From positions 62,001-126,000 of the forward strand of contig NZ_CXPG01000009.1 in assembly GCF_001403735.1 (NCBI RefSeq): a DNA stretch of 64,000 nt. Reading direction: 5' to 3'. The position numbers were made by a program, and so were the translations under genes. Below the pieces are notes generated by a model. The model was not told where the DNA came from and searched no databases. It saw nothing but the letters and a program-made list of their open reading frames with translations. This document shows, in pieces, positions 19,549 to 26,091 of the stretch. Position 1 is the first letter of the stretch; each line of letters opens with the position of its first letter. The DNA is from Jannaschia rubra. GTDB taxonomy: Bacteria; Pseudomonadota; Alphaproteobacteria; Rhodobacterales; Rhodobacteraceae.

Positions 19549-19579
19549 TGTGATCACGCTCCGGTTGGCCGTGATCACA
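19549..19579. promoter_or_regulatory. Paired GTGATCAC operator upstream of sucC
   Basis: TGTGATCACG at 19549-19558 and its exact inverse CGTGATCACA at 19570-19579. The 8-base palindromic cores are 21 bases apart, two helical turns, so two regulator dimers could bind the same face. It lies 115-145 bases upstream of the sucC start. The same arrangement lies upstream of sdhC (26054-26091). Confidence 0.8.
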
Positions 19580-19664
19580 AAGTTGCGGAGGAGCGGCCTG
19601 GTGTTGTGCCGTCAGTGCGTCGCTGGGGTGATTCCCATTCGCCGGCCCGTAGGTGCCGGGGACG

Positions 19665-19696
19665 AAAAGCGGCGGCCCGGACACGCCGGACCGCCG
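19665..19696 (-). terminator. Intrinsic terminator downstream of mdh
   Basis: On the minus strand an 11-base stem (19686-19696 pairing with 19670-19680, one G-U pair, 5-base loop) is followed by CTTTTC. It lies 8 bases after the mdh stop, separating mdh from the sucC operon. Confidence 0.8.
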
Positions 19697-19703
19697 GATC
19701 GGG

Positions 19704-20666
19704 TCAGCTCAGCGAGCCGTCGATGGCCTTGCAGGCCTCCACCAGGCCCTTCACGGCGTCCACCGACTTGTCGAACATCGCCTGTTCGTCGCGGGTCATC
19801 TTGATCTCGACGACCCGCTCGATCCCGCCTGCGCCGATGATGGTGGGCACACCGACATACATGCCGTTCAGACCAAGGGCTCCGTCGACCCAGGCTGCGC
19901 AGGGCAGCAGCCGCTTCTGGTCCTTGAGATAGGCCTCGGCCATCTCGATCGCGGAGGACGCGGGGGCATAGAAGGCCGATCCGGTCTTGAGCAGGCCCAC
20001 GATCTCGGCCCCGCCGTCGCGGGTGCGCTGCACGATCGCGTCGAGCTTGTCCTGGCTTGTCCACCCCATCTCGACGAGGTCGGGCAGGGGGATACCACCG
20101 ACGGTGGAATAGCGCACCAGCGGCACCATCGTGTCGCCGTGGCCGCCCAGCACGAAGGCGGTGACGTCGCGCATAGAGACGCCGAACTCCTCGGCCAGGA
20201 AATGCCGGAAGCGCCCCGAATCAAGGACGCCGGCCATTCCCACGACCTTCTCGTGCGGCAGGCCCGAGAACTCCCGAAGGGCCCAGACCATCGCGTCGAG
20301 CGGGTTGGTGATGCAGATGACGAAGGCGTCGGGAGCGTTGTCGCGGATGCCTTCGCCCACGGCCTTCATCACCTTGAGGTTGATGCCCAGCAGGTCGTCG
20401 CGCGACATGCCCGGCTTGCGCGGCACGCCTGCGGTGACGATGCACACATCGGCCCCCGCGATGTCGGCATAGTCGTTCGTGCCCTTGAGGTCGGCGTCGA
20501 ACTTCTCGACCGGGCCGCTTTCGGCGATGTCGAGGGCCTTGCCCTGCGGCGTGCCCTCGCTGATGTCGAAGAGGACGACGTCCCCCAGTTCCTTGATAGC
20601 CGCCAGATGGGCGAGCGTGCCGCCGATCTGTCCGGCGCCGATGAGGGCGATCTTGGGTCGGGCCAT
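19704..20666 (-). CDS. mdh: Malate dehydrogenase (LDH-like type)
   Basis: 320 residues from the ATG at 20666; the upstream part of the open frame is not conserved. The Rossmann motif [19 protein letters not shown], the mobile-loop region [29 protein letters not shown], and the catalytic histidine in [16 protein letters not shown] are all present. It belongs to the lactate-dehydrogenase-like MDH group of alphaproteobacteria. It catalyses NAD-dependent malate oxidation to oxaloacetate. It has its own terminator and is followed by the sucC operon. Confidence 0.97.
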
Positions 20667-20674
20667 TTCCGTCT

Positions 20675-20696
20675 CCGATATGTCCATCGATATCGG
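20675..20696. repeat. Inverted repeat in the mdh leader
   Basis: CCGATAT at 20675-20681 and ATATCGG at 20690-20696 with an 8-base loop, 9 bases upstream of the mdh start codon. It could be a small hairpin in the mRNA leader or an operator half-site pair. Confidence 0.4.
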
Positions 20697-20751
20697 GCGG
20701 AGGGGTAGCGGATGGCCCATGGCCAGCGCAAGGGGCGGTGGCGCCGTGCCG

Positions 20752-21081
20752 TCAGGCCTCCGCATCGGCCAGATGGGCCAGGTCGTCCATCCGGTCCTCC
20801 CATGCCTGACCGGTGGCCAGCAGGCACATGCGCCCGTCGGGCAGCGTCACGGCGACCGTCCAGCTGCCCGTCGCGTCGGAGGCGAAAACCTCCACCACGC
20901 GGTTCGCCTGCCCGAGGCCGATGCCGCGGCGCGTCTCGCCGAAATGGCTGGCCAGCCGCGCCACCACGGTGCTTCGCGCGCCACAGGCCGCATCGTCCGC
21001 ACGACCGGGCAGTGCGGTCAGCGCAAGGGCAAGCCCGGTCAGAAGGGCAAGCGTGGTGTTCAGGATCTGCGTCTTCGTCAT
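20752..21081 (-). CDS. Small secreted hypothetical protein upstream of mdh
   Basis: 109 residues from the ATG at 21081 with a classical signal peptide ([28 protein letters not shown]). The mature part is about 80 residues with two cysteines (AACGAR and RMCLLA) that could form a disulfide. It has a short beta-rich core ([23 protein letters not shown]). No named family is recognised. It is 85 bases upstream of mdh in the same direction and may share its promoter. Confidence 0.65.
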
Positions 21082-24505: not shown

Positions 24506-24511
24506 GGCGGG

Positions 24512-24847
24512 TCAGTCCTTCTTGGGATCGTGACCCCAGTTCATCAGGCTGTAGCGCCAGTCGGAATGCTCCATGTCATCGTCCGGGCCGCCCTGCGCCT
24601 TGTGACGCTTGATGTAGCCCACGACCTTGGCCATGTGGTCCCACTGGTCGTCGGTCAGGTCGTCCTTATTGGTGCGCTTGATCTCGACGATGCGCTCGCC
24701 GGACTTGTGGCCCTTGGATTCGCCGTCGCCGCTGTCGACGCCCACGGATTTGCTCTCGTCGCTCTCCAGCCAGTCTTCCAGCTCCTTCGGCGCCATGTTC
24801 ACGAGGTCGCGCCATTCGTCCCAGACCTCTTCGCGTGATTTCGACAT
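24512..24847 (-). CDS. DUF3140 domain protein
   Basis: 111 residues, highly charged. It shows the DUF3140 pattern: an N-terminal EEVWDEWRDLVNMAPKELEDWLES, a glycine/serine linker, then RIVEIKRTNKDDLTDDQWDHMAKVVGYIKRHKAQGG and SDWRYSLMNWGHDP. It is cytoplasmic. Members of this family have been found beside DNA-binding or stress proteins, but the role is not established. It probably has its own promoter in the 63 bases upstream, which also hold the terminator of the next gene. Confidence 0.82.
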   Translation of the reverse strand: MSKSREEVWDEWRDLVNMAPKELEDWLESDESKSVGVDSGDGESKGHKSGERIVEIKRTNKDDLTDDQWDHMAKVVGYIKRHKAQGGPDDDMEHSDWRYSLMNWGHDPKKD

Positions 24848-24879
24848 GCGGTCTCCGTTCGTCAGGTGAAAGGGAAGGA

Positions 24880-24898
24880 GCGGCCCGCGCGGGGCCGC
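24880..24898 (-). terminator. Hairpin downstream of the membrane protein gene
   Basis: Arms GCGGCCC at 24880-24886 and GGGCCGC at 24892-24898 with a 5-base loop. On the minus strand it is followed by a pyrimidine-rich TCCTTCCCTTTC tract. It lies 13 bases after the stop of the gene at 24911-25945. Confidence 0.55.
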
Positions 24899-24910
24899 CC
24901 CATCGTGTCG

Positions 24911-25945
24911 TCAGGCGCGTGCGGGGCGGCCGGCGGCAGCACCGCCCACGGCAGCGCCCAGCCCGATGAGCGAGGCCAGCGCGGCAAGCCACGCAGCGGT
25001 CGCAGCGGCGTCGGTCGCTTCCTCGGCAGCGGCGAGGGCCGTCTCGCGCGCCTCCGTCAACGCGGCTTCGGCCCGTTGCTGAACCTGTTCCGCCCGGGCC
25101 TGGACGTCGTCGATGAAGCGTTCGGCCTCGGCCGGGGTCACGCCGAAGCGGTTCTCCATGACCGCAATGGCTTCCTGCCGGTCTTCCTCACCCAGAACGC
25201 CGCCCTGGCCGAAGACGTTGTCGATGAAATTGTCGACTTCGGCCCCGATGTTCGTCGGATTGGCCAGGATGTCATCGGCCGTGGCGGTCGCCTGCTGGCG
25301 GATGCGGGCCTGTTCCTGCTGCGAGATCACGTTGCGGAACGCTTCGCGCGCCTCGGCACGGAAGTTCTCGGGCGTGATGCCGTTGCGCCGCAGGGCCTGC
25401 TGCACGCCGTCGGGCAGATCGTCCATCGAAAGCGAGCTGATCGACACGTCCGGCAGCGAGAAGTCGTCGGGCACGACGGCCTGCGTCGCCGATCCCAGAC
25501 CGCTTGCGATGCTGGAGATGGCCGAGCCGGCGACATTGGCGATGCCCATGGCGGCCGAGGTGGCGAGCCAGACAGCGGCCAGCGTCGTCAGCCCCCAGAC
25601 CGTCGCGCCATGCAGCATGGCACCCACGGAGTGCATCACGCCGGCCAGGCGCCCTGCGACATAGCCGCCCGCTCCGAGGGCCACGAGCTGGCTGATGAAC
25701 TGCCAGATGGCGGTGGTGGTCAGGCTGCCGTTCATCGGGCTGGCCTCGTCGGGCTCGAACAGCGAAAGGCCGAGACCGATCCCCACGAGGCTGAGCAGGA
25801 CGAAGACGCCCAGCGCGACGACCGTGCCGGCGAAGATCGCGCCCCAGACGGCGCGCCCCCGGCCATCGTACATCCGCTCGATGTCGTCGTGGACAAGGTC
25901 TCCCGGCCGACCGGGTGCGGGGGTGGTGTGCGTGGTCTTTTTCAT
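24911..25945 (-). CDS. Multi-pass membrane protein with coiled C-terminal domain (hypothetical)
   Basis: 344 residues. The cytoplasmic N-terminus (RPGDLVHDDIERMYDGRGRAVWGAI) is followed by glycine-rich membrane helices (IFAGTVVALGVFVLLSLVGIGLGLSLF, FISQLVALGAGGYVAGRLAG, GATVWGLTTLAAVWLATSAAMG). A long amphipathic helical region with many glutamines and glutamates (residues about 180-320) comes next, and a final hydrophobic helix (AAWLAALASLIGLGAAVGGAAAG). The family is common in alphaproteobacteria but uncharacterised. Its start is 108 bases from the paired operator shared with sdhC, so it may be controlled divergently by the same regulator. Confidence 0.7.
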   Translation of the reverse strand: MKKTTHTTPAPGRPGDLVHDDIERMYDGRGRAVWGAIFAGTVVALGVFVLLSLVGIGLGLSLFEPDEASPMNGSLTTTAIWQFISQLVALGAGGYVAGRLAGVMHSVGAMLHGATVWGLTTLAAVWLATSAAMGIANVAGSAISSIASGLGSATQAVVPDDFSLPDVSISSLSMDDLPDGVQQALRRNGITPENFRAEAREAFRNVISQQEQARIRQQATATADDILANPTNIGAEVDNFIDNVFGQGGVLGEEDRQEAIAVMENRFGVTPAEAERFIDDVQARAEQVQQRAEAALTEARETALAAAEEATDAAATAAWLAALASLIGLGAAVGGAAAGRPARA

Positions 25946-26053
25946 CGTGCTCTCCGCGGTTTTCGGTGCGGGGGCGCGGGATGCGCCGTCCAGGAGGGCA
26001 ACACCGACGTTGCGTCACGGTTCCATGACCGGGGCCGCCGCCCGGTTCGCCGC

Positions 26054-26091
26054 GGTTCGTGATCACAGTCCGGTCCGCGTGATCACGAACC
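26054..26091. promoter_or_regulatory. Paired GTGATCAC operator upstream of sdhC
   Basis: GGTTCGTGATCAC at 26054-26066 and its exact inverse GTGATCACGAACC at 26079-26091, with a 12-base spacer. The GTGATCAC cores at 26059 and 26079 are 20 bases apart. It lies 107 bases upstream of sdhC and 108 from the divergent membrane-protein gene. It matches the operator upstream of sucC (19549-19579). Confidence 0.82.

Follow-up and report, generated by a model that had tools for sequence, protein, structure and literature searches.

Paired GTGATCAC operators upstream of sucC and sdhC in Jannaschia rubra as likely double sites for the activator AkgR

Paired operators of two TCA-cycle operons

The window analysed here, a 64,000-nucleotide stretch of the Jannaschia rubra genome, holds two operons of the tricarboxylic acid (TCA) cycle, each preceded by a paired operator. 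On the minus strand lie sucC (18241..19434), which encodes succinyl-CoA ligase beta and is the first gene 3' of its operator, sucD (16724..17611; succinyl-CoA ligase alpha), odhA/sucA (13334..16279; 2-oxoglutarate dehydrogenase E1) and odhB/sucB (11800..13329; E2). On the plus strand lie sdhC (26198..26581; succinate dehydrogenase cytochrome b556 subunit), sdhA (26983..28794) and sdhB (30099..30878). The sucC-sucD-odhA-odhB double operator (19550..19578, minus strand, 115 bp 5' of the sucC ATG) consists of two GTGATCAC cores at 19550-19557 and 19571-19578, 21 bp apart with a spacer of 13. The sdh double operator (26054..26091, plus strand) has its cores at 26059-26066 and 26079-26086, 20 bp apart with a spacer of 12, the core end being 111 bp 5' of the sdhC ATG, and its 13-base arms (26054-26066 and 26079-26091) form an exact inverted match. 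A sequence-only reading of this DNA had reported both the paired cores, 20-21 bp apart, and the exact arms of the sdh copy, which are confirmed here. The one other GTGATCAC that it had noticed, in soxC, is indeed the fifth exact copy of the window, at 1231 inside a molybdopterin oxidoreductase gene of SoxC type. By contrast, mdh, which it had offered as a further target to check, was rejected as a target of this site, since the sucC-side operator lies 3' of mdh, between mdh and sucC, and is oriented toward sucC.

Exact copies of GTGATCAC are enriched in the window (5 observed versus 1.16 expected, with at least five in 0 of 100 shuffles) and copies with one mismatch occur at chance level (35 versus 29.7 expected), which places the signal in the pairing. 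Throughout the 3.66 Mb genome, GTGATCAC pairs with a spacer of 8-20 number two in total, those of sucC and sdhC. The reversed pattern gave no pair with such spacers in this genome, and none at spacer 13 even when up to three mismatches were allowed, a setting at which the GTGATCAC pair matched 33 times (once exactly, twice with 2 mismatches and otherwise with 3). The reversed pattern is therefore a lenient control; it contains CTAG, which is rare in bacteria. Genomic near matches with 2-3 mismatches were, as a group, taken as chance.

The pair is widespread in the family. When one genome per genus was sampled (149 genera), two GTGATCAC cores separated by 8-20 nt were found in 133 genera, with two pairs per genome in 98, one in 25, three in 8 and four in 2. 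The spacer is 12 or 13 in 242 of the 253 family pairs, eleven other lengths between 8 and 20 together accounting for 11. Although the reversed pattern was absent from the same 149 genomes, its leniency makes the concentration of spacers and the class-wide rarity of the pair better yardsticks: in a class-wide draw, a similar pattern matched 13 of 385 genomes, i.e., 5 of 5 in the family and 8 of 380 outside it. The sequence-only reading had tied its fate to conservation in relatives and to a genome-wide frequency above chance, and neither result refutes it.

As for the targets, all listed family sites with a spacer of 12 or 13 were fetched except one (G028:C346), and 11 loci outside the family were removed before counting. 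The 243 deduplicated records that were placed comprise 132 before sucC (a triple site in genome G135 being included twice) and 111 before sdhC, with a spacer of 13 in 218 and of 12 in 25. Three records were left unplaced by the script: two represent a single site of G042, before a Lyase_1-family gene, and the third is found in G136, 5' of a gene carrying the 2-oxoglutarate dehydrogenase N-terminus. All 245 placed spacer-12/13 sites lie 5' of TCA-cycle genes. The fuller site approximates TTTGTGATCACA-N11-TGTGATCACAAA and is stronger at sucC than at sdhC. A divergent membrane gene (24911-25945) was also considered as a conserved target and rejected, because among the pair loci shown it was matched in this genome only.

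Several individual loci deserve mention. The G042 site (L143:1294-1322) is a third exact pair, 5' of what is probably a fumarase gene, which suggests a regulon able to reach the next TCA step. The triple site of G135 (G135:C8:374318-374367, in L258) has three consecutive GTGATCAC cores in 21-bp steps 5' of sucC. In Fertoeibacter niger (L297), akgR and sdhC share a locus with a spacer-13 pair 5' of sdhC. The gene surroundings were inspected for two of the eight out-of-family matches: L144 is near a TonB receptor and hydrolases, and L145 adjoins another GntR/FCD gene and a TonB receptor plug. Also outside the family, GTGATCAC pairs stand near other GntR-type genes at L145:992-1020 and L089:1501-1532, whose products share 28% and 36% identity with AkgR, so a broader group of GntR proteins may recognise the 8-mer. 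Finally, 26 sdhA loci were examined, mostly from one-pair or pairless genomes. Nine genomes (G040, G064, G058, G126, G052, G009, G110, G026 and G066) have a pair with 1-2 mismatches before sdhC and GTGAC at 50-60. In G045 the pair has one mismatch and a spacer of 11, and GTGAC is absent, while G078 has an exact pair. The other loci of this set, including those of G087, G120, G085, G030, G033 and G090, have no recognisable pair.

AkgR as the probable regulator

Sequence comparison and published work indicate that the regulator of the paired sites is very probably AkgR, a GntR/FCD protein. Its probable orthologue in the window (7458..8105, plus strand, 215 amino acids), assigned from Pfam, orthologue comparison and co-occurrence, has a GntR winged helix (51 bits) and an all-helical C-terminal domain of FCD type (70 bits), the sole Pfam families at E ≤ 0.001. 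The sequence-only reading was right to name AkgR as a candidate, but not to call it MarR-type: no MarR domain was found at that threshold, and AkgR of R. sphaeroides (RSP_0981) is described as GntR-type (PMC6365646, PMC4344238; here and below, papers are cited from excerpts). A Foldseek search with a model of AkgR returned McbR/YncC and other GntR/FCD structures as best matches, with template modelling (TM) scores of at most 0.51 for a middling model (predicted local distance difference test, pLDDT, 69; predicted TM score, pTM, 0.39).

The motif and the targets also point to AkgR. In PMC6365646, which compares AkgR with a GntR-like protein, GTGATCAC is found among AkgR binding sites, so the earlier reservation that the AkgR motif could not be confirmed no longer applies. 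RSP_0981 was predicted to control RSP_0967-6, RSP_0974-6 and RSP_0965-62, a regulon of sucCD, 2-oxoglutarate dehydrogenase and sdh (PMC4344238). In G051, a candidate R. sphaeroides genome, the gene order (sucC, mdh, sdhC, sdhA, GntR gene) is that of the RSP numbers, and the GntR gene, located 3' of sdh as expected for RSP_0981, is 76% identical to the window AkgR. AkgR reportedly activates TCA genes directly.

Close orthologues of AkgR, defined by E ≤ 1e-80 (a cut-off set once the gap from 1e-81 to 3e-59 was apparent), occur in 131 of the 149 family genomes and are 65-80% identical outside J. rubra. Orthologue and exact pair are found together in 128 genomes and are both absent from 14, while 3 have the protein only and 4 the pair only (Fisher p = 1.2e-13), an agreement in 142 of 149. 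Of the three with the protein only, G040 carries a pair with one mismatch at the usual place before each operon. Such agreement might merely reflect shared inheritance within the family, where losses are few because the close orthologue is missing in 18 genomes only. We find this very improbable, since pair presence needs at least six changes on a FastTree tree of SucC, and AkgR-less genomes keep sucC but mostly lack the pair and the GTGAC before sdhC. Among 12 AkgR-less genomes whose sucC is 71-85% identical, the best pair has at least 5 mismatches before sucC in 11, and before sdhC in all but one; the weak exceptions are G017 and G101, respectively, each with 3. GTGAC is missing within 300 nt before sdhC in 11 of these 12 (L268, L269, L285, L299 and L302-L309), and is present between site and start in 99 of the 111 pair-bearing sdhC records.

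Another regulator of central metabolism might bind the sites instead, e.g., the LacI-type CceR (RSP_1663), for which sdh and mdh are among the predicted targets in R. sphaeroides (PMC4344238). However, its predicted motif, [A/G/T]GTT-N6-8-AAC, differs from GTGATCAC and was rejected as an explanation of the sites (PMC4344238), and its regulon in Paracoccus denitrificans excludes sdh and 2-oxoglutarate dehydrogenase (PMC11323563). A regulator of this kind is thus a highly unlikely alternative to AkgR.

Promoter geometry and the A/T ladder

A two-block promoter model, seeded with the sigma-70 consensus and fitted to 110 sdhC records (one record with N was dropped), learned CGTGACA as the -35 and TATAAA as the -10. 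The -35 starts 58-62 nt after the site in 86 records, 48-50 in 8, 69-72 in 6, 79 or 81 in 2 and 37 in 1, these groups being approximately 10.5 bp apart. The operator lies upstream of the promoter, with the -35 of sdhC mostly whole helical turns away. In J. rubra, the -35 element GTGACA (26135..26140, plus strand) is at +49 from the operator, one turn closer than in the commonest class, and the two-block model places a probable -10 element, TAGAAC (26157..26162, plus strand), 16 bp past it.

The shifts in spacing were placed on a FastTree tree of SdhA/SdhC fragments, comprising 90 rows (including 9 manually added loci with imperfect pairs), of which 79 had an offset; sdhC records lacking sdhA in the same locus were excluded. 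The 14 rows outside the main -35 class need 14 changes, although the tree is rough and "separate" is approximate. Thirteen of the 14 fit whole turns, with a half-width for a turn class of 2.6 nt that was our choice, the exception being L222 at +116. With kinship ignored, a Rayleigh test on the 13 whole-turn rows gives p near 1e-4, and a Monte Carlo test with L222 added gives p = 3.5e-5 against a null of even draws.

Downstream of the operator, A/T content rises and falls in a ladder anchored on the operator, with peaks near +2/3, +11/12, +22, +32 and +41/43 at both genes and a period of approximately 10.4-10.5 bp. The power at this period is 0.87 for sucC (n = 132) and 0.85 for sdhC (n = 111), versus jitter maxima of 0.105 and 0.076, and 109 of 132 sucC and 95 of 111 sdhC records are individually in phase at p < 0.05, kinship again being ignored. 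Anchoring on the operator is sharper than on the -35 (0.857 versus 0.592, n = 96), the two being nearly equal among the 14 records from the remaining turn classes (0.496 versus 0.445). In J. rubra, the stretch 3' of the sucC operator (19506..19549, minus strand) is in phase (p = 0.003); the sucC promoter itself has no confident assignment there. A sigma-70-seeded search for sucC promoters caught the A/T ladder and not the promoter.

This geometry bears on the sign of regulation, which is unreadable from sequence. Many FadR-type proteins repress, and AkgR might bind these sites as a repressor or act both ways. We regard this as unlikely. The site is 5' of the -35 and mostly keeps its helical phase, as with face-of-helix activators. 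Repression by looping would call for an additional site close to the start, and such sites are scarce: in the interval from the operator to +150 of the gene, another exact GTGATCAC was seen for one sucC record out of 132 (the one with the triple site) and one sdhC record out of 111 (L233, where the copy is intragenic), and another one-mismatch copy for 6 and 11 records, respectively. Moreover, AkgR is called an activator in PMC6365646.

A model for activation and its relation to known systems

We consider it likely that both sites serve as double operators for AkgR, an activator of GntR/FadR type, which would activate sucCD-odhAB and sdh across phased DNA. One AkgR dimer would occupy each GTGATCAC, with its flanking T and A, and two dimers, two helical turns apart, would lie next to each other on the same face of the helix. 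This would place AkgR at an estimated -85 to -120, start sites being taken from consensus spacing only, from where it may contact RNA polymerase over the helix-phased A/T tracts. For R. sphaeroides, mapped transcription starts are in print (PMC7471390). These tracts might curve the DNA or offer minor-groove seats for the polymerase alpha C-terminal domains, between which sequence alone cannot choose. Same-face sites two turns apart, together with a promoter mostly in helical register, argue for activation by contact from a distance, and whole-turn spacing combined with an anchored ladder is in keeping with face-of-helix activation in which polymerase is reached across phased DNA. More tentatively, AkgR could form a rigid two-dimer GntR platform tied to the A/T ladder, the promoter having moved mainly by whole turns in evolution, and operator, ladder, the non-consensus GTGACA -35 of sdhC and akgR having been gained or lost as one module within the family. 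The earlier interpretation is thus partly supported overall, its proposal of one regulator with two dimer-sized sites and joint control of the 2-oxoglutarate, succinyl-CoA and succinate steps being probably right.

Several observations weigh against this model. In the J. rubra stretch between the sdh operator and the -35 (26087..26134, plus strand), the ladder is not significant (p = 0.12). The fitted -35 is out of phase in 7 of 110 sdhC records (+6, +7, +12, +17, +18, +29 and +95), and 12 of 111 are without GTGAC before sdhC; in two other records it stands at +116 and +215, respectively. This element is special to sdhC, being present in 6 of 132 sucC records, and the promoter of sucC is harder to place (87 of 132 at +44-47, 12 at 34-36, 10 at 56-60, 7 at 66-70 and 16 elsewhere). 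Several genomes with AkgR and a sucC pair, e.g., G087, G120 and G085, show no recognisable sdhC pair. Besides G040, two genomes have the protein only: G147, 73% complete, where only sucC paralogue pieces and no sdhA were found, and G061, where only part of sdhA was found. Conversely, four pair-bearing genomes have no close orthologue: G019 (91% complete), G033 (74%), G096 (77%) and G114, which scored 100% over 320 contigs; G033 carries a 47% identical GntR gene on the same contig as its sucC. Finally, GTGATCAC reads GT-N4-AC, unlike the usual FadR-subfamily spacing of 3 or 2 (GT-N3-AC, with N2 in some groups; PMC4494728).

If the model holds, one leg of the TCA cycle, from 2-oxoglutarate to fumarate, is under a single regulator in about 130 sampled genera, mostly with two paired sites each, and the natural whole-turn shifts of the sdhC promoter offer a ready-made set on how a distal activator reaches polymerase. 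A literature search on GTGATCAC returned mostly eukaryotic and primer contexts, and one on a family-wide regulon and phased activator sites returned nothing further on the AkgR system. The excerpts and listings searched describe neither the double site and its exclusivity across the family nor the shifts by whole turns and the ladder anchored on the operator; their scope did not extend to the primary paper, Imam 2015 mBio.

Elsewhere in the window, Pfam identifies a pyridine nucleotide-disulphide oxidoreductase that is a probable E3 (lpd; 8864..10444, minus strand). An open reading frame (ORF) without a Pfam hit and with a lipoprotein-like start lies between sucC and sucD (17631-18206), and one with a sulfotransferase domain (weak Pfam hit) between sdhA and sdhB (28815-30032). 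At 3291-5775, a metallo-beta-lactamase-fold ORF adjoins an integrase-core ORF of insertion-sequence type.

The regulator, motif and target operons are already in print for R. sphaeroides, and the architecture described here refines them. The excerpted R. sphaeroides AkgR work has in common with our system a GntR-type protein, the GTGATCAC motif and the same target operons, GTGATCAC preceding the suc and sdh operons in J. rubra too. What differs is the double site with cores at a constant 20-21 bp, the phasing with the helix and the A/T ladder, which are described for the present system, although Imam 2015 mBio may show some of these. The GntR-like PS417_07240 of Pseudomonas simiae has a conserved GTGATCAC palindrome and is 32% identical to AkgR, but there the palindrome occupies -47 to -40 relative to the regulator's own gene and precedes a deoxyribonate cluster (PMC6365646). 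With the FadR subfamily of GntR, AkgR shares the FCD-type domain but not the site rule. CRP-type class I activators have a site 5' of the -35 and tolerate changes in distance by whole helical turns. AkgR would resemble them in both respects but differ in that two GntR-type dimers would act together, farther 5', and with a ladder of phased A/T tracts linked to the operator.

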